64,000 nucleotides of DNA from Terrabacter sp. Root181 (GTDB lineage Bacteria > Actinomycetota > Actinomycetes > Actinomycetales > Dermatophilaceae): the NCBI RefSeq assembly GCF_001428505.1, contig NZ_LMHU01000001.1:397055-461054 (forward strand), in the 5' to 3' direction. Positions 45,504 through 64,000 of the stretch are shown piece after piece. Position 1 is the stretch's first letter. Every line of letters begins with the position of its first letter. The notes under the pieces are model-generated. The model saw only the letters and a list, made by a program, of their open reading frames with translations, ran no database searches and was not told where the DNA came from. Both the position numbers and the translations under genes were made by a program.

Positions 45504-45561
45504 GGCACGGGGCTACGGTCGAGCGGCCCACCCGCACCCCGAACAGCCCAGAGGTGAACCC

Positions 45562-48047: not shown

Positions 48048-49253
48048 TCAGGACGCCGAGTGGGCGATGGCGAGGTCGACGCGGTCGGCCGTCAGGGCGT
48101 GCTGGATGACCATGGTGGCCGCACCGATGACGCCGGCCTGGACGCCGGTGGTCGCCGGCACGATCTGCAGCACGCCGGTGGCGAGGGGGAGCGAGCGGCC
48201 GTAGACGACCTCGCGCACGCCGGCGATGAGGCTCTCGCCGGCCTGGACGAGCGAGCCGCCGATGACGATGACCGACGGGTTGAGCAGGCTGACGCAGGTG
48301 GCGAGCACCTCGCCGATGGTGCGACCGGCCTGGCGCACCGCGAGGGCGGCCGGGATGTTGCCGCCGCGGACGAGGTCGACGATGTCCTTGTTGGAGTCGG
48401 CGATGATCCCGATCTCCTTGAGCGCCTTGGAGATCGCGGGTCCGCTGGCGACGGCCTCGAGGCAGCCGACGTTGCCGCACGAGCAGAGCACCTCGGCGGC
48501 GTGGGGCGCCGCGACGTGGCCGAGGTCGCCGGCCGCGCCGACCGCCCCGCGGTGCAGGCGGCCGCCGCTGATGATGCCGGCGCCGATGCCGGTCGCGACC
48601 TTGACGAAGAGGAGGTGCTCGACGTCGGGGTGGGCCATCGCGTGCTCGCCGAGGGCCATGATGTTGACGTCGTTGTCGACGAGGACCGGGACGTCGAAGT
48701 CGCGTCGGACGTGGGCGGGCACGTCGTAGCCGTCCCAGCCGGGCATGATCGGCGGGCGCATCGGACGGCCGCTCGAGTGCTCGACCGGCCCGGGCACCCC
48801 GATGCCGATGCCGATGAGGTCGCGGGGCTCGCGGCCCGCCTGCTCGAGCAGGCGGCGCGTCGTCGCGACGAGCCAGTCGAGGACGACCTCGGGGCCGTCG
48901 GTGATGTCGAGGCTCTCGCCGATCTCACAGATCGGACGGCCGCTGAGGTCGGTCAGGGCGACCCGGCCGTGCGTGGCACCGATGTCCGCGCCGACGACCA
49001 CGCGGGCCTCGGGGTTGAAGGCGAAGCGGACCGGCGGCCGGCCACCGGTGCTCGCGGCCTCGCCGCTGGGGGCGAGCAGGCCCGTCGCGAGCAGGGCGTC
49101 GACGCGGGCGCCCACGGTCGACCGGGCGAGGCCGGTCAGCTTGGCGAGCTCGGCACGCGTGCGCGGGGTCTCGTCGCGCAGCAGCTGCAGCAGCTCACCT
49201 GCGCCGCTGACGGCGGTGGCGGCATACGCGGACGACGTTGACTCTGGACGCAC
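48048..49253 (-). CDS. ROK-family transcriptional regulator
   Basis: A 401-residue protein. A winged helix (about 15-75, TPRTRAELAKLTGLARSTVG) is followed by a sugar-kinase-like ROK domain (VVVGADIGATHGRVALTDLSG, IGIGVPGPVE, GIGAGIISGGRLHRG). The zinc motif is GHVAAPHAAEVLCSCGNVGC. It is divergent from the ribose-type ABC importer, and an inverted repeat in the shared region is its likely operator. It probably represses the array to its right until the imported sugar binds. GTG 49253 is used; GTG 49271 is possible. Confidence 0.88.
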   Translation of the reverse strand: MRPESTSSAYAATAVSGAGELLQLLRDETPRTRAELAKLTGLARSTVGARVDALLATGLLAPSGEAASTGGRPPVRFAFNPEARVVVGADIGATHGRVALTDLSGRPICEIGESLDITDGPEVVLDWLVATTRRLLEQAGREPRDLIGIGIGVPGPVEHSSGRPMRPPIMPGWDGYDVPAHVRRDFDVPVLVDNDVNIMALGEHAMAHPDVEHLLFVKVATGIGAGIISGGRLHRGAVGAAGDLGHVAAPHAAEVLCSCGNVGCLEAVASGPAISKALKEIGIIADSNKDIVDLVRGGNIPAALAVRQAGRTIGEVLATCVSLLNPSVIVIGGSLVQAGESLIAGVREVVYGRSLPLATGVLQIVPATTGVQAGVIGAATMVIQHALTADRVDLAIAHSAS

Positions 49254-49318
49254 GTTCGAAGTCAAGCACACGCGGCTTCGGTATGTCATGCACACGGCTT
49301 TGGTGTGTCCACGAGAAA

Positions 49319-49345
49319 ACTTTTGCTTGACGTTCCGACAAAAGT
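49319..49345 (+). promoter_or_regulatory. Candidate ROK operator
   Basis: ACTTTTG (49319-49325) and CAAAAGT (49339-49345) are perfect inverted arms around 13 bases. The run is conspicuously A/T-rich for this genome. It spans the -35 of the candidate promoter, so binding would block the ABC operon. Confidence 0.6.
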
Positions 49346-49355
49346 GGGTCACGGT
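49327..49355 (+). promoter_or_regulatory. Candidate promoter of the ribose-type ABC array
   Basis: TTGACG (49327-49332), 17 bases, CACGGT (49350-49355), ending seven bases before ATG 49363. The -35 is near consensus and the -10 is weak. Confidence 0.45.
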
Positions 49356-49362
49356 GTGACGC

Positions 49363-50892
49363 ATGGAATCTCGACGGCGAGATGTAGCAGGCGCCCCTCT
49401 CCTGCGAATGACGAACGTGGTCAAGCGTTTTCCCGGGGTCGTGGCCCTCGGTGGCGTCGACCTCGACGTGCAGCCCGGCGAGGTGCACTGCCTGCTCGGC
49501 CAGAACGGCGCGGGCAAGAGCACCCTCATCAAGGTGCTCGCCGGCGTCCACGAGCCCAACGAGGGCACCATCGAGTGGGCCGGCGAGCCGGTCACCCTGC
49601 ACCACCCGCAGGCGGCGATGGACCTCGGCGTCGCGACGATGTACCAGGAGCTCGACCTCGTCGAGGGCCTCAGCGTCGCCGAGAACATCTTCCTCGGGCA
49701 CGAGCCCACCCGGTTCGGCTTCTCCCAGCGCACCGCCGCCCGCCGTGAGGCCGCCGCCCTGCTCGCCCGCCTCGGCCACCCCGAGATCTCGCCCTCCGTC
49801 GAGGTCGGCACGCTCTCGGCCGCCTCGTGCCAGATCGTCAGCATGGCCCGCGCCCTGTCCCGCGACGCGCAGCTCATCGTCATGGACGAGCCCTCCGCGG
49901 TGCTCGACGCCGGCGAGGTCAAGCAGCTCTTCCGCGTCATCGCCGAGGTGACCGGGCAGGGCGTCGCCGTCGTCTACATCTCGCACCGACTCGAGGAGAT
50001 CCGCGAGATCGGTGACCGCGTCACGGTGCTCAAGGACGGCAAGACGGTCGCCACCGGCCTCGACGCCAAGACGACGCCGACCCAGGAGCTGATCCGTCTC
50101 ATGACGGGCCGCTCCATCGAGTACGTCTTCCCGCCCAAGCCCGAGGTCGTCGTCGACGCCGAGCCCGTCCTCCGCGTCGAGGGCCTGGCCCGCGCGGGCG
50201 AGTTCGCATCGGTCACCTTCGACGTCCGTCCCGGCGAGGTCGTCGGGCTCGCCGGCCTCGTGGGCTCGGGTCGCTCCGAGGTCGTCGAGACGATCTTCGG
50301 GGCCCGCAAGGCGACGAGCGGCACGGTCAGCGTCGGCGGCAAGGCGGTGCGCGGGGGGTCCGTCGCCGCGGCCGTCGCCGCCGGGATCGGCCTGTGCCCC
50401 GAGGAGCGCAAGAGCCAGGCGCTCGTCCTCGGCGCCTCGCTCGCCTCGAACATCACCCTCGCGACGCTCCCGCGCTTCTCGCACGGCGGCCTGCTCGACG
50501 GGTCGGCCGAGGTCGAGGCCGCCGAGGAGCTGCTCGAGTCGCTCGACGTGCGCCCGCGCGGCGTCCACCGCGAGTCGCGCACCCTCTCCGGCGGCAACCA
50601 GCAGAAGGTCGTCCTGGCCCGCTGGCTGCTCCGCGGCTGCAAGGTGCTGCTCCTCGACGAGCCCACCCGCGGCGTCGACGTCGGGGCCCGCTCCGAGATC
50701 TACGCCCTGATCCGCCGCCTCACCGACGAGGGCGTCGCCGTCGTCGTCGTGTCCAGCGAGATCCCCGAGGTCCTGGGGCTGTCCAACCGGGTGCTGGTCC
50801 TCGCCGACCGCACCGTCCGTCACGAGGGCCCGGCCGACGAGCTCGACGAGCACGCCGTCCTCGACATCATCCTGAAGGGAGACGCGGCATGA
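49363..50892 (+). CDS. Ribose-type sugar ABC importer, ATP-binding protein
   Basis: A 509-residue protein with two fused nucleotide-binding domains, as in RbsA/XylG. The first has Walker A GQNGAGKST (near 46-54), a degenerate signature LSAASCQIV and Walker B LIVMDEPS. The second has a degenerate Walker A region GLVGSGRSEV (near 301-310), a good signature LSGGNQQKVVLARWL and Walker B VLLLDEPTRGVD. This asymmetry is normal for CUT2 systems. It heads the array controlled by the divergent ROK protein. Unlike the two CUT1 importers of this window, it brings its own ATPase. Confidence 0.92.
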   Translation: MESRRRDVAGAPLLRMTNVVKRFPGVVALGGVDLDVQPGEVHCLLGQNGAGKSTLIKVLAGVHEPNEGTIEWAGEPVTLHHPQAAMDLGVATMYQELDLVEGLSVAENIFLGHEPTRFGFSQRTAARREAAALLARLGHPEISPSVEVGTLSAASCQIVSMARALSRDAQLIVMDEPSAVLDAGEVKQLFRVIAEVTGQGVAVVYISHRLEEIREIGDRVTVLKDGKTVATGLDAKTTPTQELIRLMTGRSIEYVFPPKPEVVVDAEPVLRVEGLARAGEFASVTFDVRPGEVVGLAGLVGSGRSEVVETIFGARKATSGTVSVGGKAVRGGSVAAAVAAGIGLCPEERKSQALVLGASLASNITLATLPRFSHGGLLDGSAEVEAAEELLESLDVRPRGVHRESRTLSGGNQQKVVLARWLLRGCKVLLLDEPTRGVDVGARSEIYALIRRLTDEGVAVVVVSSEIPEVLGLSNRVLVLADRTVRHEGPADELDEHAVLDIILKGDAA

Positions 50893-51977
50893 GCGCCGAC
50901 GTCACGAAGGTCGACCAGGCAGGGGAGCCCGTCGGCGGAGCCGCGAGCGGGACCACCCCGCCCACCCCGAGCGGACCACCGGTCGGTGGAGCCGCCTCCC
51001 GCCGGGAGGGAGGCATCGCCGGCTTCCTCAACGGACCCGTCGGCCGGAACGCGGGTCTCGTGCTGGCCCTCGTGCTCCTCGTCATCGTCGGCATCATCAC
51101 GGCCGGGGACCGTTTCGCCAGCCCCGAGAACGCGCTGACGATCCTGCGACTCGGCTCGGTCATCGGCGTCGTCAGCGTCGGCATGACGTTCGTCATCTCC
51201 GGTGGCGGCATCGACCTGTCGGTCGGCGCCATCGTCGCCCTCTCGTCGGTCTGGGCCACCACGGTGGCGACCCAGACCATGGCCGCGAACTACCACTGGA
51301 TCGTCATGGTCATCGCGGCGCTCGTCGTCGGGGCCGTCTGCGGACTCGTCAACGGGGTGCTGATCGCCTACGGGCGCATGGCGCCGTTCATCGCGACCCT
51401 CGCGATGCTCGCCGCCGCCCGGGGCCTGGCCGAGATCATCGCCAAGCGCCGCACCCAGATCATCCGCGACCGCGGCTTCATCGAGTTCTTCGGCGGCAGC
51501 GTCCTCGGCATCCCCGTGCTCGTCATCATGTTCGCGATCGTCGCCGTCGTCGGCTGGGTCCTGCTCAACCGCACGACGTTCGGGCGTCGCACGCTGGCCA
51601 TCGGCGGCAACCCCGAGGCGGCCCGCCTCGCCGGCATCCGGGTGCAGCGCCAGACGATGTACCTCTACATCCTGCTCGGTGTCGCCTGCGGCATCGCCGC
51701 CGTGATGATCATGGCCCGCACGACGACCGGCACGTCCACGCACGGCACCCTCTACGAGCTCGACGCGATCGCCGCCGTCGTCATCGGCGGCACGCTCCTC
51801 AGCGGTGGCCGCGGCACGATCGTCGGCACCGTCCTCGGCGTCCTCATCTTCACGACGCTCACCAACGTCTTCACCCTCAACAACCTCGACACGTCGACGC
51901 AGGCGGTGGCCAAGGGGGCGATCATCGTCGCCGCCGTCCTGCTCCAGCAGCGGGTCTCCCGCACCAGGTCGGGCTAG
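50889..51977 (+). CDS. Ribose-type sugar ABC importer permease
   Basis: A 362-residue RbsC-like permease with eight to ten hydrophobic segments after a 50-residue glycine/proline-rich N-terminus. The family pattern is clear in GMTFVISGGGIDLSVGAIVA (about 98-117) and AIGGNPEAARLAGIRV (about 237-252). It overlaps the ATPase gene by four bases (ATGA) and forms the membrane channel, probably as a homodimer. Confidence 0.92.
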   Translation: MSADVTKVDQAGEPVGGAASGTTPPTPSGPPVGGAASRREGGIAGFLNGPVGRNAGLVLALVLLVIVGIITAGDRFASPENALTILRLGSVIGVVSVGMTFVISGGGIDLSVGAIVALSSVWATTVATQTMAANYHWIVMVIAALVVGAVCGLVNGVLIAYGRMAPFIATLAMLAAARGLAEIIAKRRTQIIRDRGFIEFFGGSVLGIPVLVIMFAIVAVVGWVLLNRTTFGRRTLAIGGNPEAARLAGIRVQRQTMYLYILLGVACGIAAVMIMARTTTGTSTHGTLYELDAIAAVVIGGTLLSGGRGTIVGTVLGVLIFTTLTNVFTLNNLDTSTQAVAKGAIIVAAVLLQQRVSRTRSG

Positions 51978-52062
51978 CCGAACGGCCCGGTCGACAGCAC
52001 CACCAGCACGGCAGAGCACCACTCACCTCGCACCACCCCTCTTCGCTCACATAGGAGTCAGC

Positions 52063-53124
52063 GTGTCCGCATCACTCTCCCGTCCGACCAAGCGCGTCGC
52101 CGTCCTGGCGATCGCCCTGAGCTCGGCCCTCGTCGCCGCCGGGTGCACGAGCAACGACCCGGCCACGACTCCCGCGGCCTCGACCCAGCAGACCGGCAGC
52201 GACGCCGTGAGCGACAACGACGCCCCCGGCAAGAAGGTCGTCATCGGCTTCTCCGGACCGGCGGCCGACCACGGCTGGCTCGCGGCGGTCAACAAGTCGG
52301 CCCAGGACGAGGCCAAGAAGTACAGCGACATCGAGCTCAAGTCGGCCGAGGGCACCAACGACGCCAGCCTCCAGATCAGCCAGATCGAGACCTTCATCAA
52401 CGACAAGGTCGACGCGATCGTGCTGCTGCCGACCGACGGCGCTGCCCTCACCGAGGTCGCCACCAAGGCGATGCAGGCCGGCATCCCGGTCATCAACGTC
52501 GACCGGGAGTTCTCGAGCCCGTTCGCCGCGCGGGCGACGGTCCTCGGTGACAACTACGGCATGGGCGTCTCGGCCGGCACCTACGCCTGCAAGATCGTCA
52601 AGGACAAGAACATCGCCAACCCGGTCATCGCCGAGATCGCCGGCATCGACGCCCTGCCCCTGACGCAGGACCGGTCGAAGGGCTTCGCCGACGCGCTCAA
52701 GGCCTGCAACCAGACCGTCGACAACCGGGTCGCGGCGGAGTTCACGGTCGAGTCCGGCGAGAAGCAGGCGTCCAACCTGCTTCAGGCCGCCCCGAAGATC
52801 GACGTCCTGTGGAACCACGACGACGACCAGGGTGTGGGCGTCATGGCCGCCCTCGACCAGGCCAACCGCCACGAGATGGCCTTCATCGGCGGCGCCGGTT
52901 CGGCCAACGCGATGCGCTGGATCCAGGAGGGCAAGATGGAGGCCACGGTCATCTACCCGCCGACCCAGGCCGCCGACGGCATCAAGCTCGCGCGCCTCAT
53001 CGCCCAGGGCAAGGGCCTGAGCGACCTCGTCCAGGTCGAGGTGCCCAACCGCATCGTCCTCAACGCGCCCGTCGTGACCAAGGAGAACGTCGAGCAGTAC
53101 CTGCCCCTCGGCTTCGAGTCCTGA
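52063..53124 (+). CDS. Ribose-type sugar ABC importer, solute-binding lipoprotein
   Basis: A 353-residue RbsB-like binding protein (type I fold). The lipoprotein signal ends LVAAGC (Cys about 28). The mature domain shows VVIGFSGPAADHGWLAAVNK, DAIVLLPTDGAALTEV and GIPVINVDREF. By neighbourhood the ligand may be a cyclitol or monosaccharide that the next gene's dehydrogenase oxidises. GTG 52063 has AGGAG seven bases upstream. A hairpin follows the stop. Confidence 0.9.
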   Translation: MSASLSRPTKRVAVLAIALSSALVAAGCTSNDPATTPAASTQQTGSDAVSDNDAPGKKVVIGFSGPAADHGWLAAVNKSAQDEAKKYSDIELKSAEGTNDASLQISQIETFINDKVDAIVLLPTDGAALTEVATKAMQAGIPVINVDREFSSPFAARATVLGDNYGMGVSAGTYACKIVKDKNIANPVIAEIAGIDALPLTQDRSKGFADALKACNQTVDNRVAAEFTVESGEKQASNLLQAAPKIDVLWNHDDDQGVGVMAALDQANRHEMAFIGGAGSANAMRWIQEGKMEATVIYPPTQAADGIKLARLIAQGKGLSDLVQVEVPNRIVLNAPVVTKENVEQYLPLGFES

Positions 53125-53131
53125 CCGGTCG

Positions 53132-53167
53132 GTGCTCGCGCCACCGCACGCCAGGTGGCGCGGGCAC
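53132..53167 (+). terminator. Hairpin after the binding-protein gene
   Basis: Arms 53132-53145 and 53154-53167 pair over 14 positions with one G-T wobble, around an eight-base loop. Being inside a co-directional gene array, it could be a partial terminator or an RNA-stabilising hairpin that keeps the binding protein in excess. Confidence 0.5.
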
Positions 53168-53229
53168 CCCACCGCACCAGCAGGACCGAACCGTCAGCGG
53201 TACCACCCCTCGTCGGATGTGAGGACGTC

Positions 53230-54462
53230 ATGAGCACACCCAGCAAGCCCACCCTCGGGGTCGGGATGATCGGCTACGCCTTCATGGGGCGGGCCCACTC
53301 CCAGGCCTGGCGCAACGTGCGCAGCTACTTCGACGTGCCGGCCGCGCCGCGCCTCGTCGCCGTGGCCGGGCGCAACGAGGCGGCCGCGCGCGACACGGCC
53401 GACCGCTTCGGCTGGGCCGGGGTCGAGACCGACTGGCGGCGCCTGCTCGAGCGTGACGACATCGACGTCATCGACATCTGCACGCCGGGCGACACCCACG
53501 CCGAGATCGCGGTCGCCGCTCTCGAGGCCGGCAAGCACGTGCTCTGCGAGAAGCCGCTCGCCAACTCGGTCGGGGAGGCCGAGGCGATGGTCGTGGCCGC
53601 CGAGGCGGCCCGGGCCCGCGGCGTCCGCTCGATGGTGGGCTTCACCTACCGCCGGGTCCCGGCCATCGCGTACGCCCGTCAGCTCGTCGCGGAGGGACGG
53701 CTCGGCCGTATCCTCCACGTCCGCGGTGCTTACCTGCAGGACTGGCTCGTCGACCCCGAGTCGCCGCTCACCTGGCGCCTCCAGAAGGAGCGTGCCGGCT
53801 CGGGGGCGCTCGGCGACATCGGCGCCCACATCGTCGACCTCGCGCAGTTCGTGACGGGTGAGCACCTCACCGGGGTGTCCGCCCTGACCGAGACGTTCGT
53901 GCGCGAACGTCCGGTGGCCGATCCGGCGGCCGCCGGGACCGGGGGGATCAGCGGCACGGCCGCGCAGAACGGCTCGGCCACCACCGGGCCGGTGACCGTC
54001 GACGACGCCGCCGTGCTCGTCTCGCGGATGAGCGGTGGCGCCCTCGCGACCTTCGAGGCGACCCGCTTCGCCAACGGCCGCAAGAACGCGATCCGCCTGG
54101 AGGTCAACGGGACCGAGGGCTCGCTCGCCTTCGACTTCGAGGACATGAACGTCCTCCACGTCTTCGACGGGCGCGTCCCGAGCCGCGACGCCGGCTTCAC
54201 CCGGGTGCTCGTCACCGAGTCCACCCACCCCTACGTGGCGTCCTGGTGGCCGCCCGGTCACGTGCTCGGCTACGAGCACGGCTTCACCCACCAGGCGGTC
54301 GACCTGCTGACCGCCATCGCCGAGGGCACCGACCCCCGGCCTTCCTTCTCCGACGGGCTCCAGGTGCAGCGGATCCTGTCGGCGGTCGAGACGAGCGTGG
54401 AGCGGGAGGGGTCCTGGACCCCGATCGACGGGGCCCACGCGACGTCGCCGACCATGTCCTGA
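53230..54462 (+). CDS. Gfo/Idh/MocA-family sugar or cyclitol dehydrogenase
   Basis: A 410-residue NAD(P)-dependent oxidoreductase. The Rossmann start is GMIGYAFMGRAHSQAW (near 12-27), and CEKPLANSVGEAEAM (near 109-123) holds the catalytic lysine of the EKP motif. The C-terminal alpha/beta domain contains GDIGAHIVDLAQFV, with the usual substrate-site histidine. Between 235 and 262 there is an Ala/Gly/Thr-rich insertion that looks disordered. Such enzymes oxidise inositols or sugars, often at C3. Its position after a sugar importer suggests that it acts on the imported compound. Confidence 0.88.
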   Translation: MSTPSKPTLGVGMIGYAFMGRAHSQAWRNVRSYFDVPAAPRLVAVAGRNEAAARDTADRFGWAGVETDWRRLLERDDIDVIDICTPGDTHAEIAVAALEAGKHVLCEKPLANSVGEAEAMVVAAEAARARGVRSMVGFTYRRVPAIAYARQLVAEGRLGRILHVRGAYLQDWLVDPESPLTWRLQKERAGSGALGDIGAHIVDLAQFVTGEHLTGVSALTETFVRERPVADPAAAGTGGISGTAAQNGSATTGPVTVDDAAVLVSRMSGGALATFEATRFANGRKNAIRLEVNGTEGSLAFDFEDMNVLHVFDGRVPSRDAGFTRVLVTESTHPYVASWWPPGHVLGYEHGFTHQAVDLLTAIAEGTDPRPSFSDGLQVQRILSAVETSVEREGSWTPIDGAHATSPTMS

Positions 54463-54557
54463 ACGCTGCGGAGGCACTCGACCTCGCTTGTCAGACAAGG
54501 AGATCCAGCACAAACCGCACGTCTAGTCTCTGTCACCCCTTGAAGGAGCACGCTCAC

Positions 54558-55670
54558 ATGCACGACAACGACGTCAACCCGCTCAAGCTCGTCAGCAAGC
54601 TCGGACTCAACCGTCGCCAGTTCTTCGCGGCCACGACGGGCGTCGCCGCCGCCGTGACCCTGACCGGGACGGCCGCCAAGGCCGCCCCCGGCGCCAGCGG
54701 GGTCCTCATCCCCGCCCCTCGCCGAGGGATCATCCTCTACACCGTGCGTGACGCGGTCGGGCGCGACCCGCTGACCTCGCCGTACGCCTCCGGCTTCAAG
54801 GAGGTGCTCACCGAGCTCTCCTCGATCGGCTACCGCCAGATCGAGTTCGCCGGCTTCCGCCAGCACGCCAACGCCGAGGGCGGTGCAGACCTGAACACGG
54901 TGGCCGGTGCCACGCAGCTGCGCGCCTGGCTCGACGAGCTCGGGCTCGAGGCCGAGGGCAACCACGGCTCGATCCCGTCGACCATCACGGACACGACGAT
55001 CGCGCAGTTCGACGCGGCCTGCGAGATCGCCAACATCCTCGGCATGGGCCACGTCGGCACCGGGTCCGACCCGACCGGCTCGGCCTACGTCGCCGACTGG
55101 GAGGCCGCGGCCGCGCGCTGGAACTTCTTCGGGGAGAGGGCCGCCCAGCACGGACTCAAGCTCTACACGCACAACCACGACATCGCGTACAGCTTCCTGC
55201 TCGACAGCGGGCCGCTCGACGCACAGGGCCGCCCGACGCGCTCGTCCGGCATCCGCCGCCTCGAGCACTTCCTGGCCAACACGGACCCGAAGGCCGTCTA
55301 CCTCGAGATGGACATCTACTGGGCCCACGTCGCGCAGTACAAGCACACGACGTACACCGCCCCGGACGGCTCGGTCGTGACCTCGATCTTCGACCCGGCC
55401 GCGGTCGTCGCCGCCCAGACGTCACGCTTCCCGCTCTTCCACGCCAAGGACGGCAAGATCGACACGACGCAGTCCAACGGCTACGTCATGGCCCCCTTCG
55501 GCCAGGGCGACATCGACTACTCGACGTTCCTGCGCCGGGTCGGTGCCAAGGGCTCGCACAACCCGATGTGGGAGATGGACACCGCACCGGGCAACGCCAC
55601 GACGGCTCCGAACCAGTCGATGGAGCTCTCGAAGGTCAGCTACGACGCGATGGCCGCCCTTCGCGGCTGA
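54558..55670 (+). CDS. Tat-exported TIM-barrel sugar isomerase/epimerase-like protein
   Basis: A 370-residue protein of the xylose-isomerase-like TIM-barrel family (AP endonuclease 2 fold). The N-terminus has a twin-arginine signal (LNRRQFFAATTGVAAAVTL, about 17-35), so the barrel works outside the cytoplasm. Possible metal ligands are in RQIEFAGF, LYTHNHDIAY, YLEMDIYW, FHAKDG and MWEMDTAP. Related proteins isomerise or cleave 3-keto sugars after dehydrogenase action; that role is inferred. ATG 54558 follows GAAGGAG. A strong hairpin follows. Confidence 0.82.
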   Translation: MHDNDVNPLKLVSKLGLNRRQFFAATTGVAAAVTLTGTAAKAAPGASGVLIPAPRRGIILYTVRDAVGRDPLTSPYASGFKEVLTELSSIGYRQIEFAGFRQHANAEGGADLNTVAGATQLRAWLDELGLEAEGNHGSIPSTITDTTIAQFDAACEIANILGMGHVGTGSDPTGSAYVADWEAAAARWNFFGERAAQHGLKLYTHNHDIAYSFLLDSGPLDAQGRPTRSSGIRRLEHFLANTDPKAVYLEMDIYWAHVAQYKHTTYTAPDGSVVTSIFDPAAVVAAQTSRFPLFHAKDGKIDTTQSNGYVMAPFGQGDIDYSTFLRRVGAKGSHNPMWEMDTAPGNATTAPNQSMELSKVSYDAMAALRG

Positions 55671-55813: not shown

Positions 55814-58800
55814 ATGAATGCTACTTCGCGATCCAGGGCGAGGAGGCTGGTTGCCACAACTGCGGCAGCCGTCCTCGCCTGCACGGCGCTCGGCGCCGTG
55901 GCCACCCTCCCGGCCCAGGCGCACGACGGGGTCGACCACGGCTCCGAGCCGGCGCTCGACTGGTCGAACTACGAGAAGATCACCCTCACCAAGGACACCG
56001 GTGAGCCGATCGACATGGCCGTGCTCCCCGACCGCCGCGTGCTGACGACCGCCCGCAACGGCGACGTCCGCCTCGTCGACCCCGACAGCGGCGTCACCAA
56101 GGTGATCAACACCCTGCCCGTCTACAACAACTCGGAGGACGGGCTCCAGACCGTCACCCTCGACCCCGACTTCCAGACGAACCAGTGGGTCTACCTCTAC
56201 TACGCGCCGCGCACCATGACCGCGCCGTACGTGACGACGACCCCGACCGGGTCGGCGCCGAACAGCCTGCCCGCCGGCGCGGACGCCTCCTACTGGGACC
56301 AGTGGAAGGGCTACAACCAGCTCAGCCGCTTCAGGTGGGACGACGCCGCCGACAAGCTCGACCTCGCGAGCGAGCAGGTCATCCTCAAGGTGGAGACGCA
56401 GCGCGGCCAGTGCTGCCACGTCGCCGGTGACGTCGACTTCGACGCCGACGGCAACCTCTACCTCTCGACCGGCGACAACACGCCGGCGAGCGCGCCGGGG
56501 GCCAACGGCTTCGCGCCGAACAACAACGCGCCCGGCTTCAACCCCGGCTTCGACTCGCGTCGCGGCGCCGGCAACACCAACGACCTGCGCGGCAAGATCC
56601 TGCGCGTCCACCCCGAGGCCGACGGGTCCTACACGATCCCGGCGGGCAACCTCTTCGCACCGGGCACCGCCAAGACCCGTCCCGAGATCTTCGTCATGGG
56701 CGTGCGCAACCCGTTCCGCATGGACGTCGACCCGATCACGAACTCCGTCTCGTGGGGCGACTACGGCCCCGACGCCGGCGCGCCCGACGCCCAGCGCGGC
56801 CCGATGGGCTACGTCGAGTGGCAGACCACGGCCATCACCAAGCCGATCAACGGCGGGTGGCCCTACTGCCACGGGCCGAACGCGAACTACAACGAGTGGA
56901 ACTTCGCCACGGCGACGCCCGGACCGTGGTTCGACTGCAACGCCGGCGCCACGAACAACTCGACGTGGAACACCGGGCTCGCCCAGGTGCCCCCGGCCAC
57001 CGCGCCGACGCTCTACTACGGCGACAACAACACGCACCAGCCGTGGCCCGAGCTGACCGACTTCGACCCGCAGGGTGGTCAGGGCCCGATGGGCGGTCCC
57101 GTCTACCACTACGACGCGACCAACGCGTCGACGACGAAGTTCCCGGCGTACTGGGACAAGAAGGCGTTCTTCGCCGAGTTCTCGCAGGACTACCTCGCGG
57201 TGTTCGACGTGCAGTGGCCCAACGGACCCGTCAACCACATCCAGCACTTCCTGCCCAACCGCGACCTCGAGACGAACGGCCAGCCGATCACTGACAGCCC
57301 GATCGACATCGAGTTCGGCCCGGACGGGTCGCTCTACGTCCTCGACTACGGTGACGGCTTCTTCCGGGCCAACCCCGACGCCGGCCTCTACCGGATCGAC
57401 TACGCGCCCGGCAACAAGGCGCCGCAGGCGAAGATCGCGGCGAACCCGATCAGCAGCAGCAGCGCCCCGCTGACGGTCCAGTTCGACGCGTCCGGCTCGG
57501 TCGACCCCGAGGGTGGGGCCCTGACCTACGAGTGGGACTTCGACGGCAACGGCACGTTCGACGCGACCGGCGCCACGGCGAGCTTCACCTACACCGAGCT
57601 CGGGAAGTACACGGCGCGCCTGCGCGTCACCGACCCGGAGGGCCGTCGCGGCCTGACGAGCACGTCGATCAGCGTCGGCAACGTCGCCCCGACGGTCACC
57701 ATCGCGACGCCCCCCAACGGCGGCTTCTTCGACTGGGGCCAGGCCGTGCCCTTCAACGTCACGACCTCCGACCCCGAGGACGGCACCGCAACGGTGTGCT
57801 CGCGCGTGACCTGGACCTTCGGGCTGGGGCACGACGCGCACGCCCACCCGCTGAGCCAGGGCACGGGCTGCCAGTTCGCGATCCCGACCCCGGCCGACGC
57901 GACCCAGCACGGCGAGACGGAGAACATCTTCGGCGTCGTCGTCATCACGTACACCGACAACGGGGCCAACGGTCTCCCCGGTGCGACCACCACCGAGCAG
58001 CTGATCCTCAACCCGAAGAAGCAGGAGGCCGAGTGGGCCGACGCGACACAGGGTGTCGAGATCACGAACGACGACGCGGCGAGCGGCCTGCGCAAGGTCA
58101 CCTCGTTCGACGCCGGTGACTGGCTGGCCTGGGACCCGGCGAACCTCGTCGGCGTCACGGGCGTGACGGCCCGCGCCTCCGGCAGCGGCACCCTGTCGCT
58201 CCGGTGGAACTCGCCGACGGCGGTCCCCTTCGGCACCGTCGCGGTGAGCGGCTCCGGCTGGACCGACGCGGCAGCGAGCCTGTCGTCGAAGCCCACCGGC
58301 ACCGGACGCCTCTACGTCACCTCCTCCGGCGGGGTCGTGCTCGACTCCCTGACGTTCGTGGGCAACGGCGTCGCCGACGTCACACCCCCCGTCGTCTCGG
58401 CCACGCTGAACCCGGCGACGCCGAACGGCGCGAACGGCTGGTACACGAGCAACGTGACCGTCACGGTCAACGCGACCGACAACGGCACCGTCGCCTCGCG
58501 CCAGCGCTCCACCGACGGTGGGACCACGTGGGTCAACGCCAACACGGCGCTGACGATCTCGACCGAGGGCACGACGACCGTGCTCTACCGCGCCACCGAC
58601 AACGGCGGCAACGTCTCGCAGGTCGGCTCCGTCACGGTCAAGCTCGACAAGACCCAGCCCGCGGTCGCGGTGTCCGGGGTGACCGACGGCGCCACCGTCG
58701 GCAACTCCGGCGACGTGACGTGGACGGCGACGGACGCGACGAGCGGCATCGACACCGTGACCGCCACGGTCGACGGCACCGCGGTCGCGGCCGCCACGCC

Positions 58801-59158
58801 GCTGGCCCTGTGGAAGCTCTCGCTGGGCAGCCACACCCTGGTCGTCACGGCGACGGACAAGGCAGGCCTGGTGCGCACCACGACGGTGACGTTCACGACC
58901 CGCACGTCGCTGCTGACGCTCACCGCCCTGACGGAGCGACTGGCCCGCGAGGGTCTCGTCACCCCGGCGGGCGAGAAGGAGCTCGAGAAGCGTCTCCAGC
59001 AGGCCGAGAGGCACGTCGCCGCGGGTCGCACCGCGGCCGCGATCTCGCAGCTGCAGGGCTTCGTCGACGCTGCGACGTCGAGCACCAACGTCCGCGACGC
59101 GGCGGCCTCGGCCGCCCTGCAGCGTGACGCCAACGCGGTCATCGCCTCGCTGCGCTGA
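55814..59158 (+). CDS. Secreted glucose/sorbosone-dehydrogenase-type protein with PKD and Ig-like domains
   Basis: A 1114-residue exported protein. A signal peptide covers about 1-36 (ending PAQAHDG). Residues 45-535 form a six-bladed propeller of the PQQ-dependent sugar dehydrogenase (GSDH) type: DMAVLPDRRVLTTARNGDVR at the start, CCHVAGDVDFDADGNLYLST, MGVRNPFRMDVDP, SPIDIEFGPDGSLYVLDYGD. A PKD domain follows (about 540-625, VQFDASGSVDPEGGALTYEW), then a CBM-like beta-sandwich (about 735-855), Ig-like repeats (about 860-1030), and a helical C-terminus. It could oxidise a sugar or cyclitol outside the cell; whether it binds PQQ is unproven. No ThuA domain is seen, though PKD-GSDH-ThuA fusions are common relatives. 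Confidence 0.85.
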   Translation: MNATSRSRARRLVATTAAAVLACTALGAVATLPAQAHDGVDHGSEPALDWSNYEKITLTKDTGEPIDMAVLPDRRVLTTARNGDVRLVDPDSGVTKVINTLPVYNNSEDGLQTVTLDPDFQTNQWVYLYYAPRTMTAPYVTTTPTGSAPNSLPAGADASYWDQWKGYNQLSRFRWDDAADKLDLASEQVILKVETQRGQCCHVAGDVDFDADGNLYLSTGDNTPASAPGANGFAPNNNAPGFNPGFDSRRGAGNTNDLRGKILRVHPEADGSYTIPAGNLFAPGTAKTRPEIFVMGVRNPFRMDVDPITNSVSWGDYGPDAGAPDAQRGPMGYVEWQTTAITKPINGGWPYCHGPNANYNEWNFATATPGPWFDCNAGATNNSTWNTGLAQVPPATAPTLYYGDNNTHQPWPELTDFDPQGGQGPMGGPVYHYDATNASTTKFPAYWDKKAFFAEFSQDYLAVFDVQWPNGPVNHIQHFLPNRDLETNGQPITDSPIDIEFGPDGSLYVLDYGDGFFRANPDAGLYRIDYAPGNKAPQAKIAANPISSSSAPLTVQFDASGSVDPEGGALTYEWDFDGNGTFDATGATASFTYTELGKYTARLRVTDPEGRRGLTSTSISVGNVAPTVTIATPPNGGFFDWGQAVPFNVTTSDPEDGTATVCSRVTWTFGLGHDAHAHPLSQGTGCQFAIPTPADATQHGETENIFGVVVITYTDNGANGLPGATTTEQLILNPKKQEAEWADATQGVEITNDDAASGLRKVTSFDAGDWLAWDPANLVGVTGVTARASGSGTLSLRWNSPTAVPFGTVAVSGSGWTDAAASLSSKPTGTGRLYVTSSGGVVLDSLTFVGNGVADVTPPVVSATLNPATPNGANGWYTSNVTVTVNATDNGTVASRQRSTDGGTTWVNANTALTISTEGTTTVLYRATDNGGNVSQVGSVTVKLDKTQPAVAVSGVTDGATVGNSGDVTWTATDATSGIDTVTATVDGTAVAAATPLALWKLSLGSHTLVVTATDKAGLVRTTTVTFTTRTSLLTLTALTERLAREGLVTPAGEKELEKRLQQAERHVAAGRTAAAISQLQGFVDAATSSTNVRDAAASAALQRDANAVIASLR

Positions 59159-59248: not shown

Positions 59249-60418
59249 ATGACGGACGAACGAACCGGGCTCTGGCTCGTCGGCGCACGCGGCTCGGTCG
59301 CGACGACCGTCGCCACCGGCCTCGCGCTCATCACCGCCGGCGGTGCCGGGCCCGACGGCCTCGTCACCGAGCAGCCCGACCTGGCCGCTGCCGGCCTCGT
59401 CCCGCTCGACCACCTCGTCGTCGGTGGCCACGACGTCACGGACGTGCCGCTCGTCAAGCGGGCGGCGCAGCTGGCCGACGCCGGGGTCATCCCGCACACG
59501 GCCCTGGCGCTCGTCGCCGACGAGCTCGACCGGACGTGCCGGCGGATCCGCCACGGCCACCGGGACGCCGAGGAGCGCCAGGTCGACGCCGTCGAGCGGC
59601 TGGCCGCCGACATCCGCGCCTTCGCGGAGACCGAGTCCCTGTCGCGGGTGGTCGTCGTCAACGTCAGCTCCACCGAGCCGGTCGTCACCGACGACCCGGC
59701 CCACGCATCCCTCGACGTCCTCGAGCAGGCCTGGGGCGCAGGCGAGTCCCCGCTGCCGCCGAGTGCCGTCTACGCAGCGGCCGCCTTCACGGCCGGCGCC
59801 GCGTTCATCGACTTCACGCCCTCGACCGGCGCGCGCCTGCCCGCGCTCGAGGAGCTCGCCGAGCGCCACGGGGTTCCATGGGGCGGCAGCGACGGCAAGA
59901 CGGGCGAGACCCTCGTCAAGTCGGTCCTCGCACCGATGTTCGCCGCGCGGTCGCTCCGCGTCCGGTCGTGGGCCGGCACGAACCTGCTCGGCGGCGGGGA
60001 CGGCGCCACGCTCGCCGACCCCGACGCGATGGAGAGCAAGGCGCGGAGCAAGGCCCGTGGCCTCGAGGCGATGCTCGGCCACCCGGTCGACGGCCCGGTC
60101 CACATCGACAACATCGCCGACCTCGGCGACTGGAAGACGGCGTGGGACCACCTGACCTTCTCCGGCTTCCTCGGCACGCGGATGTCGATGCAGTTCACGT
60201 GGCAGGGCTGCGACTCGAGCCTCGCCGCCCCGCTCGTCATCGACCTGGCGCGCCTCGCCGACCTGGCGCTGCGCCGCGGGGAGGTCGGCCCGCTGCCGGC
60301 CCTGGGCTTCTTCTTCAAGGACCCCGTCGGCTCGGACGAGCACCGCCTCTTCGAGCAGCACCGGGTGCTGACCGCGTGGGCGAACGAGCCGGCGACGGAG
60401 CAGGCGACGGCGTCGTGA
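59249..60418 (+). CDS. Inositol-3-phosphate synthase family protein of the ebo-type cluster
   Basis: A 389-residue protein of the myo-inositol-1-phosphate synthase family, which turns glucose 6-phosphate into inositol 3-phosphate using internal NAD. Visible features are the dinucleotide loop LVGARGSVATTVATG (about 10-24), VVNVSSTEP (near 138), AFIDFTPSTGARLPAL (near 188), and the catalytic-domain signature GGSDGKTGETLVKSVLAPMF (about 212-231) with its lysines. It belongs to the divergent bacterial branch, not necessarily the housekeeping Ino1. The start is ATG 59249, with GAGGAG eight bases upstream. It overlaps the EboC gene (GTGA), so its product is tied to that prenyltransferase pathway. 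Confidence 0.85.
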   Translation: MTDERTGLWLVGARGSVATTVATGLALITAGGAGPDGLVTEQPDLAAAGLVPLDHLVVGGHDVTDVPLVKRAAQLADAGVIPHTALALVADELDRTCRRIRHGHRDAEERQVDAVERLAADIRAFAETESLSRVVVVNVSSTEPVVTDDPAHASLDVLEQAWGAGESPLPPSAVYAAAAFTAGAAFIDFTPSTGARLPALEELAERHGVPWGGSDGKTGETLVKSVLAPMFAARSLRVRSWAGTNLLGGGDGATLADPDAMESKARSKARGLEAMLGHPVDGPVHIDNIADLGDWKTAWDHLTFSGFLGTRMSMQFTWQGCDSSLAAPLVIDLARLADLALRRGEVGPLPALGFFFKDPVGSDEHRLFEQHRVLTAWANEPATEQATAS

Positions 60419-61311
60419 CGACCCTGCGCGACCTCGTCGAGCTGGTGCGGGCGCCGGCCGCCCTCACCGTGCCCGGCGACACCCTCGCGGGGGCGGCGAG
60501 CGCGGGCTGGCCGGCCGGTGCGCGCTCAGCGGCGCTGCCGGTCGCGTCGACGTGCCTCTACTGGGCGGGCATGGCGCTCAACGACTGGGCCGACCGCCGC
60601 ACGGATGCGGTCGAGCGACCGGAGCGCCCGATCCCGTCCGGTCGTGTGCCGGCCCGGACGGCGCTCGCCGTCGCCACCGGCCTCACCGCCGCCGGCATCG
60701 CCGTCTCGGCGGCCGCCGGTGGGCGCCGCTCGGCCGCCACCGCCGCCGTGCTCGCCGCGGCGGTCTGGGCCTACGACCTGTCCCCCAAGCAGGGACCGCT
60801 GAGCGTGGCGACGATGGCCTCCACACGCGGTCTCGACGTGCTCCTCGGGGCGAGCGCGGGCGGCGTGCCCGGCCTGCGCGCCGCCGCCGTCCCGGCCACG
60901 CTCGTCGCCGTCCACACGGCAGGCGTCACGGCCCTCAGCCGCGGTGAGGTGCACGGCGGCTCGACCGGCATGGCCCGGGCCTGCGTCGCCGCGACCGCCC
61001 TCGTCGCCACAGCCTCGGCGCTGCGTACAGTCCCCACTGCCGGACGCGGACGTGCCGGCGGAGCGCTCGGCGCTGCCGTCTCCGTCGCCCTCACGGGGTC
61101 GTATGCCGTGAGCGTCCTCCGCGCGCAGCTGGCCGCCGCGCGCACGCCCGATGCCGGCACGGTCCGGCGGGCCACGGGCGCGGGCATCCGGGGCCTCGTG
61201 CCCCTCCAGGGCGCGGCGCTCGCGGCGACCGGCCACCACGCGGCCGCGCTGGGTTTCGCCGCCTCCGCGCCGGTCGGTGCGGCCGCCATGAGGCGGGTGT
61301 CGGCGACGTGA
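60415..61311 (+). CDS. eboC: EboC-type UbiA prenyltransferase
   Basis: A 298-residue membrane protein with about eight hydrophobic helices and the first UbiA aspartate motif as NDWADRRTDAVERPERPIPS (about 56-75). The second conserved region reads YDLSPKQGPLSVATMASTRG (about 120-139). UbiA enzymes join a polyprenyl chain to an aromatic or cyclitol/sugar acceptor in the membrane. The SCO-like and EboC branch lies in ebo gene clusters, which fits the neighbours EboA, EboB and EboE. It is coupled by four-base overlaps to the inositol synthase gene before and the TIM-barrel gene after. Confidence 0.85.
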   Translation: MTTLRDLVELVRAPAALTVPGDTLAGAASAGWPAGARSAALPVASTCLYWAGMALNDWADRRTDAVERPERPIPSGRVPARTALAVATGLTAAGIAVSAAAGGRRSAATAAVLAAAVWAYDLSPKQGPLSVATMASTRGLDVLLGASAGGVPGLRAAAVPATLVAVHTAGVTALSRGEVHGGSTGMARACVAATALVATASALRTVPTAGRGRAGGALGAAVSVALTGSYAVSVLRAQLAAARTPDAGTVRRATGAGIRGLVPLQGAALAATGHHAAALGFAASAPVGAAAMRRVSAT

Positions 61312-62162
61312 GCCTCCGCTTCGGCTACGGCCTCAACGGCTTCACCGACCACCGGCTCGAGGACGCCCTCGCGCTCCTCGCCGACCTCGGCTACGACGGC
61401 GTCGCCCTGACGCTCGATCACGCGCACCTCGACCCCTTCGCGCCCGACCTGGCCGGCCGGGCGGCCCGAGTCGGCGGCCTGCTGGCCCGGCACGGGCTCG
61501 GGGTCGTCGTCGAGACGGGAGCCCGCTACGTGCTCGACCCGCGCCGCAAGCACGAGCCCACCCTCGTGTCCGACTCCGGCCGAGAGCGCCGGATCGACCT
61601 GCTGGAGAGGGCGATCCGCGTCGCGGCAGAGGTCGGGTCACCGGTGGTCTCGTGCTGGAGCGGCATCGCCCCGCGTGGTGCGAGCAGCGAGGAGCTGTGG
61701 TCGCGCGTCGAGGCCGCCGTCGCAGCACTCCTGCCGGTGGCCGAGGCGCACGGCGTCGACCTCGCCCTCGAGCCGGAGCCCGGCATGTTCGTCGAACGCA
61801 TCGCCGACGTGCTCGAGCTGCGCCGACGCCTCGGCTCGCCCGATCGACTGCGCCTGACGATCGACGTCGGCCACCTGCGCTGCACCGAGGACGCCGACCC
61901 GGCGGCCTGCGTGCTCGGCGCCGGCGAGCTCCTCGCCAACGTGCAGATCGACGACATGCGCCGTGGCGTCCACGAGCACCTACCGCTCGGCGAGGGCGAG
62001 GTGGACTTCCCGCCCGTGCTCGCGGCGCTCGAGGCCGTCGAGTTCACCGGACTCGTCGCCGTCGAGCTGCCCCGCCACGCCCACGCCGCGCCGTCGCTGG
62101 CGGCCTCGAGCCTCGAGTTCCTCCGCACCGCCGCACGACGACCCCAGGAGGTGGGCCGATGA
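61308..62162 (+). CDS. Cytoplasmic TIM-barrel sugar phosphate isomerase/epimerase-like protein
   Basis: A 284-residue xylose-isomerase-like TIM barrel without an export signal (FGYGLNGFTDHRLEDALALL at the start). Metal-site residues are probably in LALEPEPGMF (near 149), TIDVGHLRC (near 186), NVQIDDMRRGVHEHLPLGEG (about 208-227) and GLVAVELPRH (near 248). It is distinct from the Tat-exported barrel at 54558. GTG overlaps the EboC stop, and its stop overlaps the EboA start, so it is a core member of the cluster. Possible roles are isomerisation or epimerisation of the cyclitol or sugar intermediate. Confidence 0.82.
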   Translation: MSLRFGYGLNGFTDHRLEDALALLADLGYDGVALTLDHAHLDPFAPDLAGRAARVGGLLARHGLGVVVETGARYVLDPRRKHEPTLVSDSGRERRIDLLERAIRVAAEVGSPVVSCWSGIAPRGASSEELWSRVEAAVAALLPVAEAHGVDLALEPEPGMFVERIADVLELRRRLGSPDRLRLTIDVGHLRCTEDADPAACVLGAGELLANVQIDDMRRGVHEHLPLGEGEVDFPPVLAALEAVEFTGLVAVELPRHAHAAPSLAASSLEFLRTAARRPQEVGR

Positions 62163-62737
62163 CCCCCACGAACCCCACGACCAGCACGGACGCGCTCGCC
62201 GAGGTCGCGAGCGACCCCGACACCATCGACCGGCACTTCCCAGCGGCGGCGCGCACCGCGGCCCGCGAGGGCCGTGACGGGGACGCCGCACGCGAGGCTC
62301 TGCTGCTCGCGGTCCCCGGCCCGGCGGCATACGTCGTCGACGTCGTGCGTCGCGTCTACGACCACGGCGACGCGGCCGAGCGCCGGGCGGTCCTGCTCGC
62401 GCTCCCGGCGCTCGACGCCCCCGACCGTCCCGACCCCATCGGCGACACCGCCCTCCCGATCGTCCGAGATGCCCTGCGCACCAACGACACCCGCCTCGTG
62501 GCCGCTGCCCTCGGACCGTATGCCGCCGCGCACCTCGACGACGACGCCTGGCGCCAGGCGGTGCTCAAGGTGCTCTTCACCGGCATCCCGGTGGAGCAGG
62601 TCGCCGGCCTGGCCGACCGTGCCGACGACGAGCTGGCCCGCATGGTCCGCGACTACGCCGCCGAGCGCGAGGCCGCCGGCCGAGTCGTGCCACCGGACGC
62701 CCGAACCGTCCTCGCCCTTGCCCACCGAGCCGACTGA
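62159..62737 (+). CDS. eboA: EboA-domain protein
   Basis: A 192-residue alpha-helical protein (PAAARTAAREGRDGDAAREA, VYDHGDAAERRAVLLALP, then AALGPYAAAHLDDDAWRQAV and VLKVLFTGIPVEQVAGL) matching the EboA family found in ebo clusters, which has no known catalytic activity. It contains HEAT-like helical repeats and no signal peptide. Placement between a TIM-barrel protein and the TatD-like EboB, with a four-base overlap, supports the assignment. Two GGCATAC-type motifs lie in it (62328 and 62518 region). Confidence 0.78.
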   Translation: MTPTNPTTSTDALAEVASDPDTIDRHFPAAARTAAREGRDGDAAREALLLAVPGPAAYVVDVVRRVYDHGDAAERRAVLLALPALDAPDRPDPIGDTALPIVRDALRTNDTRLVAAALGPYAAAHLDDDAWRQAVLKVLFTGIPVEQVAGLADRADDELARMVRDYAAEREAAGRVVPPDARTVLALAHRAD

Positions 62738-62746
62738 GGAGCCACC

Positions 62747-63631
62747 GTGCGCATCTTCGACCCCCACATCCACATGACGTCCCGCACGACGGACGACTAC
62801 CAGCGCATGCACGCCGCCGGCGTCCGCGCCGTCGTCGAGCCGTCGTTCTGGCTCGGCCAGCCGCGTACGAGCGTCGGCTCCTTCTGCGACTACTTCGACG
62901 CGCTCCTCGGCTGGGAGCCGTTCCGCGCGTCGCAGTACGGCATCGCCCACCACGCGACGATCGGCCTCAATCCCAAGGAGGCGAACGACGCCCGCTGCCG
63001 CGAGGTCCTCGACGTGCTGCCGCGCTACCTCGCCAAGGACCGCGTCGTGGCCGTGGGCGAGCTCGGCTACGACTCGATGACGCCCGAGGAGGACGACGTC
63101 TTCGCCGCGCAGCTCGCGCTCGCCGCCGAGCACGAGCTGCCCGCCCTCGTGCACACCCCGCACCGCGACAAGCTCGCGGGCACGAGGCGCACCCTCGACG
63201 TCGTGCGCGAGTCGGCGCTCGAGCCCGGCGCCGTCCTCGTCGACCACCTCAACGAGATGACGGTGGACGTCGTGGCCGAGTCCGGTTGCTGGATGGGCTT
63301 CTCCGTCTACCCGGACACGAAGATGGACGAGCACCGGATGGTCGAGATCCTGCGCCGCCACGGCCTCGACCGGATGATCGTCAACTCGGCCGCCGACTGG
63401 GGCAACAGCGACCCCCTCAAGACGCGCCGCGTCGCCGAGACCATGCTCGCCGCGGGCTACACGCCCGACGACGTCGACCGGGTGCTGTGGCGCAACCCCG
63501 TCGAGTTCTACGGACAGAGCGGGCGGCTCGAGCTCCCCGAGACGCAGGCGCCGGGGGCGTCCGAGGGTGAGCTCGTCGCAGCCGGCGCCACGTTCATGGG
63601 CAACTCCGTGCTCCGCGGCGCGAGGGAGTGA
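62747..63631 (+). CDS. eboB: EboB-type TatD-family metal hydrolase
   Basis: A 294-residue TIM-barrel amidohydrolase of the TatD family. Metal ligands are visible: HIH in FDPHIHMTSRT (near 5-7), Glu in VGELGYDSMTPEE (near 105), HTPHRDK (near 137) and DHLNEMT (near 166), with a later Asp in NSAADWGNSD (near 217). In ebo clusters this TatD-like protein accompanies the prenyltransferase and EboE. Its substrate is unknown. The start is GTG 62747, with GAGGAG seven bases upstream. Confidence 0.85.
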   Translation: MRIFDPHIHMTSRTTDDYQRMHAAGVRAVVEPSFWLGQPRTSVGSFCDYFDALLGWEPFRASQYGIAHHATIGLNPKEANDARCREVLDVLPRYLAKDRVVAVGELGYDSMTPEEDDVFAAQLALAAEHELPALVHTPHRDKLAGTRRTLDVVRESALEPGAVLVDHLNEMTVDVVAESGCWMGFSVYPDTKMDEHRMVEILRRHGLDRMIVNSAADWGNSDPLKTRRVAETMLAAGYTPDDVDRVLWRNPVEFYGQSGRLELPETQAPGASEGELVAAGATFMGNSVLRGARE

Positions 63632-63634
63632 GCC

Positions 63635-64000
63635 GTGCGCCTGCTCCACGCCGACGGCCAGACCGTCCACGTCGCGTACTGCACCAACGTCCACCCGGGC
63701 GAGGACCTCGACACGATCATCGGGCAGCTCGACCGCTTCGCGCTGCCCGTACGCCGTCACCTCGGCAGCGATGTCCTCGGCCTCGGTCTGTGGCTGAGCG
63801 CTCCCGTCGCCCGTGGCCTCGCCGGTGACCCGCGACAGACCGACCGCCTCCGCGCCGCGCTCGACGGGCGCGGCCTCGAGGTCGTCACCCTCAACGGGTT
63901 CCCCTACCGCGGCTTCCAGGACGAGGTGGTCAAGCACCGCGTCTACCACCCCGACTGGACCGAGCCGGCCCGCCTGGCCTACACGACCGACCTCACCGAG
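63635..64000 (+). CDS. eboE: EboE, metabolite traffic protein, N-terminal part only
   Basis: The first 122 residues of a TIM-barrel protein of the EboE family, cut by the window end. The family signatures AYCTNVHPGEDLDTIIGQL (about 14-32), GLGLWLSAPVARGLA (about 49-63), VVTLNGFPYRGFQ (about 84-96) and HRVYHPDWTEPARLAY are all present. EboE is the most recognisable ebo marker. In cyanobacteria the ebo genes are needed to move the scytonemin monomer to the periplasm. It starts at GTG 63635, three bases after the EboB stop, so translation is coupled. Confidence 0.88.
   Translation, partial: MRLLHADGQTVHVAYCTNVHPGEDLDTIIGQLDRFALPVRRHLGSDVLGLGLWLSAPVARGLAGDPRQTDRLRAALDGRGLEVVTLNGFPYRGFQDEVVKHRVYHPDWTEPARLAYTTDLTE

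Follow-up and report, generated by a model that had tools for sequence, protein, structure and literature searches.

The name ebo dates from 2016, when the product of these genes was unknown, and in the passages concerned an isoprenoid-cyclitol made through EboD and EboC was proposed and fusions of a TIM barrel to EboA were noted in Actinobacteria (PMC5133447). In ebo mutants of Nostoc, according to passages of a later study, the scytonemin monomer remains in the cytoplasm; a lipid carrier was proposed (PMC6282210). Relatives of EboC from Maribacter, Zobellia and Algoriphagus were assayed on aromatic acceptors in the UbiA-297 study, as far as its excerpts go (PMC9235831), and in a table covering the CDA region of Streptomyces coelicolor SCO3242, a 'putative transferase', adjoins SCO3243, a 'myo-inositol phosphate synthase' (PMC3610822). 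Here we describe an ebo operon of Terrabacter sp. Root181 in which an inositol-3-phosphate synthase (MIPS) stands where EboD would be expected. The window, that is the whole 64,000-nucleotide stretch analysed, covers bases 397055-461054 of contig C1 of this 4.9-Mb actinobacterial genome, and the stretch past position 64000 was also examined. Our results indicate that MIPS, usually accompanied by an additional TIM-barrel protein (TIM), probably replaces EboD as the source of the cyclitol in the actinobacterial ebo cluster.

No description of a MIPS variant of the ebo cluster was found among the matches listed in the open-licence PMC literature, nor was any paper found there that treats EboA together with inositol-3-phosphate synthase, or eboC and eboA together with inositol. 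The main text of the article that named the genes contains no word beginning with 'inositol' (PMC5133447), and no name for the ebo product was found in the passages available from later open-licence literature. Public annotation already names the genes of the variant.

An inositol-3-phosphate synthase in the position of EboD

The operon consists of genes for MIPS, a UbiA-superfamily protein of the SCO3242 family, TIM, EboA, EboB, EboE and EboF, in this order, and ends 2.2 kb beyond the window (Table 1). As given in the first-pass annotation, which was made from the letters of the window alone, an inositol synthase opens the run and the genes are tightly spaced. Both Pfam domains of MIPS were matched, and all junctions from MIPS to EboF are 4-base overlaps except for gaps of 9 bases (EboA/EboB) and 3 bases (EboB/EboE). 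The genes that it listed up to EboE are all present, although the run goes on past 64000, where an EboF-type phosphodiesterase was found and no EboD. Its placement of positions 62159-64000 in EboA, EboB and EboE was upheld, as the cut-offs of NF035938, PF01026 and NF035939 were all passed. The name EboC was correct only in part: the protein belongs to the UbiA superfamily and occupies the EboC position, but it falls in the SCO3242 branch and scores 124.3 bits with the curated EboC equivalog NF035940, under the cut-off of 250. EboA missed the narrower EboA family NF035937 (78.1 bits vs. a cut-off of 320). No EboB model reported a match, and the placement of EboB relies on Pfam and on single-query scores, of 210-311 bits against EboB of three EboD-type clusters; EboF used as a query in the same way gave 469-497 bits against its counterparts from three EboD-type clusters.

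The absence of EboD from the run, already suspected from the window, was confirmed by a profile scan of the flanking stretch, which detected no EboD in the operon or just beyond the window. A search of the whole genome with PF01761 (E up to 0.001) revealed a single match of the dehydroquinate-synthase family, the superfamily of EboD, on a different contig (C6). This protein reached 145 bits with the EboD profile, compared to 632 bits for an EboD used in building that profile, and its gene adjoins a shikimate-kinase-like frame recognized by eye; therefore, it was rejected as an EboD and read as AroB.

The alternation of the two enzymes was analysed in 51 loci collected with EboE, and not MIPS, as the seed: 29 stretches from 396 genomes of the phylum (Actinomycetota) and 22 plasmid stretches chosen by hand from 48 and 47 records. 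The locus profiles were built from matches in the loci that they then scored, so that these scores are in-sample. MIPS was detected in 36 loci, EboD in 10 and neither enzyme in five, and no locus carried both. In the phylum sample the comparison with other actinobacterial ebo loci proposed in the first-pass annotation gave MIPS in 26 of 29 stretches (one of them, in genome G335, scored on a 91-bit fragment, with an intact copy on another contig), EboD in one and neither in two, and in the plasmid sample the respective numbers were 10, nine and three. The extra TIM gene went together with MIPS, a link absent from the first-pass annotation, being present in 35 of the 36 MIPS loci and in none of the 10 EboD loci.

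A similar association was evident at the level of the class, for which one draw of 296 genomes was searched with EboE and with an ebo-MIPS alignment, matches above 500 bits being taken as ebo-type MIPS. EboE passed its cut-off in 78 genomes and ebo-type MIPS was present in 73, all 73 of which also had EboE, whereas 218 genomes had neither; six genomes with EboE matches below the cut-off and three with weaker MIPS matches (G415, G459 and G605; 258-348 bits) were excluded from the respective counts, and places and genome lists were transferred by hand. MIPS lay within 10 kb at 71 of the 82 EboE places over the cut-off. The remaining 11 include three genomes with MIPS on another contig, probably because of contig breaks (G446, G538 and G622; in G446 each of the two stretches starts with part of the UbiA gene, which shows the break), the second EboE places of G123 and G614, whose first places are beside MIPS, the already mentioned G335, and five genomes without ebo-type MIPS. 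Thus, the variant is real, is general in the class sampled, where it occurs in about a quarter of the genomes (73/296), and is a new form of the ebo cluster. The converse scan of named genomes, seeded with MIPS, left 80 loci of 139, with EboA, EboB and EboE in 73, the full set in 61 and EboD in none; five loci without the EboA/EboB/EboE set (L062, L071, L102, L104 and L126) are cut by contig ends. As named Streptomyces genomes are among the carriers and the variant is widespread in the class, the ebo pathway becomes testable outside cyanobacteria.

All MIPS loci of the EboE-seeded sample are actinobacterial except for one, on a plasmid of Gemmatirosa kalamazoonensis (Gemmatimonadota), which repeats the swap with a MIPS and a TIM that are 47% and 49% identical to those of the window, and which has EboG instead of EboA. 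Searches with two single EboG sequences also located this gene beside EboD, on two plasmids of Deinococcus and in genome G301. Therefore, the choice between EboA and EboG and that between EboD and MIPS vary independently, EboG with MIPS being a single case. In a midpoint-rooted MIPS tree, the Gemmatirosa enzyme lies on a long branch, grouped with four MIPS rows from outside ebo loci.

The five EboE-seeded loci with neither enzyme are a second cluster of G123 (L043), a broken cluster (L052), a lone EboE (L188) and two reduced clusters (L193 and L194). In L043 (10912-13808) genes for a flavin adenine dinucleotide (FAD) oxidoreductase and an inositol-monophosphatase-family protein are located upstream, in the place of MIPS, the latter gene being counted in favour of the replacement; no relatives of these two genes at 40 bits or more were found in the other examined loci. 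In L052 (genome G244) the UbiA and EboE genes are in pieces and the stretch has neither MIPS nor TIM, and transposase-type genes are located near the cluster of L194. The eboE of L188 (8995-10173; Streptomyces sp. NBC_01244 plasmid) lies within an apparent aromatic polyketide gene cluster, without any other ebo gene in the stretch, and EboE-family genes without ebo neighbours in 20 kb were also seen in four class genomes (L225, L226, L227 and L228).

Substrate, product and alternative explanations

The closest named relatives of the operon MIPS, at 91-95% identity, are from Terracoccus, Terrabacter and an Intrasporangiaceae genome, and the nearest solved chain is the MIPS of Archaeoglobus fulgidus (1u1i; 9.9e-62, 212.6 bits); other solved relatives include 7nwr (155.6 bits), 6k96 (56.4 bits) and the mycobacterial 1gr0 (48.8 bits). 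The equivalents of Archaeoglobus D225, K227, N255, D261, K274, K278, K306, D332 and K367, which we take to be catalytic, are the same in all 27 MIPS sequences aligned, and N255, K278 and K367 are positions changed in solved variants of the Archaeoglobus enzyme. As the catalytic residues are intact, the operon MIPS is likely active on glucose 6-phosphate. It is separate from the mycothiol-type INO1 (TIGR03450; 47.8 bits vs. a cut-off of 638), of which a second MIPS of this genome (C1:166511) is a representative, in a separate deep branch of nine rows in the tree. With this second enzyme present, a role of the operon MIPS as the sole housekeeping copy was rejected for this genome; in 25 of 27 EboE genomes at least two MIPS matches were found, so that the ebo copy is mostly an extra one.

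The alternation of two unrelated cyclitol-forming enzymes in one operon gives independent support to the cyclitol idea, and it suggests a defined first substrate, glucose 6-phosphate, as a clue to the product. In the proposed route, MIPS would convert glucose 6-phosphate into inositol 3-phosphate, as its residues suggest, and adjustment of the inositol phosphate would fall to the TIM barrel together with EboF, the phosphodiesterase. Prenylation by the UbiA protein, probably on a hydroxyl, would come next; EboE and EboB might finish the product, and EboA could act as a helical scaffold. The prenylated cyclitol would stay in the membrane and serve work outside the cytoplasm, either by helping to export intermediates, in the way proposed for scytonemin, or by supporting exported sugar oxidases. 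The first-pass annotation had put forward a shorter version of this route, of which the beginning stood, with MIPS in the place of EboD and glucose 6-phosphate as the likely substrate, whereas prenylation by the UbiA protein and handling by EboA, EboB and EboE are steps that we infer. The whole chain from glucose 6-phosphate to a membrane prenyl-cyclitol is put forward tentatively, and it is doubtful that every step will hold.

For the later steps, the UbiA protein is informative: after SCO3242 and EboC, its best scores were with digeranylgeranylglyceryl-phosphate synthase (55 bits) and chlorophyll synthases (49 and 48 bits), compared to 24 bits for ubiA_proteo. The first two kinds of enzyme attach their chains to oxygen, and since the nearest relatives after EboC are thus O-transferases, a hydroxyl is the probable acceptor. 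The predicted structure of EboE (predicted local distance difference test, pLDDT, 91.2) is a ketose-3-epimerase-like barrel of the same kind as TIM, for which the nearest proteins by profile are MJ1311 (3wqo) and the L-ribulose-5-phosphate 3-epimerase UlaE. EboA is modelled as all-helical (pLDDT 96.9); no solved structure was matched by its sequence, and by fold only helical-repeat (HEAT-like) proteins were retrieved, weakly, with Foldseek (E 0.17 at best) and VIA-align (Z 11.3 at best), perhaps reflecting no more than a common helical-repeat arrangement. The model is in line with the idea of a helical-repeat scaffold put forward in passages of the Nostoc study (PMC6282210).

These data also bear on a second explanation, in which the product is aromatic or quinone-like: EboE or the TIM barrel would dehydrate the cyclitol to a phenol that the UbiA protein then prenylates. 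It differs from the replacement of EboD by MIPS followed by prenylation of a cyclitol in the later steps only. The sugar-epimerase-like barrel of EboE would suit such a role, since its Foldseek matches include the 3-dehydroshikimate dehydratase AsbF and IolE, and UbiA-297 accepts aromatic acceptors in the passages describing it (PMC9235831). The best structural matches of EboE are, instead, ketose 3-epimerases (by VIA-align, L-ribulose 3-epimerase 8yeb, Z 23.8, root-mean-square deviation 2.8 over 262 residues) and O-transferases are the closer relatives of the UbiA protein, making an aromatic product somewhat unlikely.

Several results weigh against MIPS as the replacement of EboD. The 51 loci are not independent and the alternation largely follows phylum, because 28 of the 29 phylum-sample loci are MIPS-type or have neither enzyme. 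TIM is absent from the MIPS locus L170 and from the named loci L064 and L116, of which L116 and L170 are apparently the same contig, with the same scores, so that the named and unnamed sets overlap. Five Herbidospora loci consist of MIPS, EboA, EboB and EboE, with no UbiA or EboF found in their flanks, and in L107 and L123, both with complete flanks, an ebo-type MIPS has no ebo genes beside it. An EboD beside EboE had been predicted beforehand for the five EboE genomes without ebo-type MIPS and was found in none of them within 20-kb stretches; one of these genomes, G415, has a cluster lacking both MIPS and TIM, with a non-ebo MIPS on another contig, and the other four (G441, G511, G570 and G608) carry a lone EboE. 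Genome G237 carries no MIPS other than that of its ebo cluster. To our knowledge, the products of EboD and MIPS are not known to be the same ring. Finally, UbiA-297 prenylates quinolines in vitro, as reported in the excerpts of that work (PMC9235831).

Part of this evidence would fit a third explanation, in which MIPS and TIM were added for another purpose, to provide inositol for the neighbouring sugar locus or for specialised metabolites, the ebo product of actinobacteria having no need of an EboD-type ring. The locus beside the operon does contain Gfo/Idh, IolE-like TIM and sugar-transport genes, and the MIPS genes without ebo genes in L107 and L123, the cluster of G415 and the dependence of the alternation on phylum all point the same way. 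Yet MIPS is found inside the ebo operon whatever its neighbours, be it a sugar locus, ScyD/ScyE and multicopper oxidase genes or monooxygenase and methyltransferase genes, EboD and MIPS never coincide in a locus, and Gemmatirosa repeats the swap, so that we regard a separate purpose as distinctly unlikely. Still less probable is that this MIPS homologue forms some other cyclitol phosphate, with no inositol involved: the five-membered-cyclitol-phosphate synthase 6k96 among its solved relatives implies that the superfamily can change product, but two of the MIPS chains score far above it, though mycobacterial 1gr0 is lower, and none of the catalytic residues is lost. A chance location of MIPS beside the ebo genes was rejected on the 51-locus alternation and the 73/73 co-occurrence in genomes.

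Neighbouring genes

The gene for a putative exported glucose/sorbosone-dehydrogenase-like protein (GSDH), with a signal-peptide-like N-terminus recognized by eye, ends 90 bases before MIPS. Of 25 genomes, 19 had a GSDH-family gene no more than 10 kb from the cluster, compared to 0.51 expected, and such genes were seen in five of eight genera. G244 (broken) and G301 (EboD-type) were left out of the original 27 genomes, a single genus accounts for 15 of the 25, and the tally was made by hand. Among the 73 named loci, a GSDH-like gene was present in 41 stretches, before, after or inside the operon. This gene is thus a recurrent neighbour and a candidate member of the system only. The sugar locus that precedes it is also recurrent, with Gfo/Idh genes at 31 and binding-protein genes at 29 of the same 73 loci; the Gfo/Idh dehydrogenase of the window is nearest to levoglucosan dehydrogenase (376.6 bits, below the cut-off of 650).

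Table 1. Coordinates of the operon and its neighbours; positions above 64000 are window equivalents.
Feature	Coordinates	Strand	Evidence or content
Sugar locus, recurrent neighbour	48048-55670	− (ROK regulator)	ROK regulator, sugar ABC transporter and binding protein, Gfo/Idh dehydrogenase, TIM barrel with Tat-like signal
Exported GSDH-like protein (GSDH, PKD, CBM6)	55814-59158	+	PF07995 102.5 bits
Ebo-type MIPS, in the place of EboD	59249-60418	+	PF07994 164 bits, 8e-48; PF01658 107.9 bits, 3.8e-31
UbiA-superfamily prenyltransferase, SCO3242 family, EboC position	60415-61311	+	NF045897 337.6 bits (cut-off 260)
Xylose-isomerase-like TIM barrel, MIPS companion	61308-62162	+	PF01261 2.9e-43
EboA	62159-62737	+	EboA domain NF035938 173.7 bits (cut-off 50)
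EboB, TatD-like metal hydrolase	62747-63631	+	PF01026 60.6 bits (cut-off 27)
EboE	63635-64825 (in window to 64000)	+	NF035939 422.8 bits, full gene (cut-off 250)
EboF-type phosphodiesterase	64822-66228		PF01663 215.3 bits
Second, IolE-like TIM barrel	66271-67281		42-base gap after EboF

Since some other MIPS-type clusters adjoin ScyD/ScyE-family and multicopper oxidase genes, and others genes for monooxygenases and methyltransferases, the ebo cassette is a module used with varied partners, many of them exported or oxidative. The recurrence of such genes beside the cassette is the whole basis of a further idea, in which a prenyl-cyclitol membrane lipid, with its ring from either EboD or the unrelated MIPS plus TIM, would serve oxidation chemistry outside the cytoplasm, carrying substrates or electrons for exported propeller dehydrogenases, its head deriving from inositol phosphate in many actinobacteria. 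We consider it unlikely in this complete form.

Other observations were made in the surroundings of ebo genes. A gene for a pyrroloquinoline quinone (PQQ)-dependent dehydrogenase follows directly the EboD-type ebo cluster of a Salipiger sp. CCB-MM3 plasmid (L181, 12666-14813), and genes for a hypothetical protein and a ferritin-like protein stand just before the ebo genes in Mycetohabitans (Pseudomonadota; L185, 1051-4069) and Aureibacter (Bacteroidota; L186, 43-3103). In the window itself, one open frame (45202-47199) encodes two similar tandem copies of a domain with a DADDTTLWTYDME motif, presumably like that of HAD-type phosphatases.

Comparison with described systems

The pair SCO3242-SCO3243 is alike in having a transferase beside MIPS, and the passages on it make no link to ebo (PMC3610822). 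In the UbiA-297/EboC clusters of marine Flavobacteria and of Saccharomonospora, the loci of the latter being given in a figure legend, the UbiA protein is likewise within an ebo cluster, but EboD is part of the set, and the main text, in the form available, has no word beginning with 'inositol' (PMC9235831). The scytonemin ebo cluster of Nostoc has the same Ebo families, and a ScyD/ScyE-family gene stands directly before MIPS in some Streptomyces plasmids, whereas no ScyD/ScyE match was found among the examined genes beside the cluster of the window, which has the GSDH-type protein and the sugar locus instead. The MIPS of Archaeoglobus fulgidus (1u1i) is alike over the catalytic half, with all nine checked positions kept, although the enzyme of the window is bound to an operon, in a genome with a second MIPS. 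Finally, compared to the ebo operon EboA-F, as described in the passages available (PMC5133447; PMC6282210), the locus likewise has EboA, EboB, EboE and EboF encoded in a single operon with a UbiA-superfamily protein, and differs in having MIPS and an extra TIM barrel for EboD, a UbiA protein of the SCO3242 branch and the order MIPS-C-TIM-A-B-E-F.

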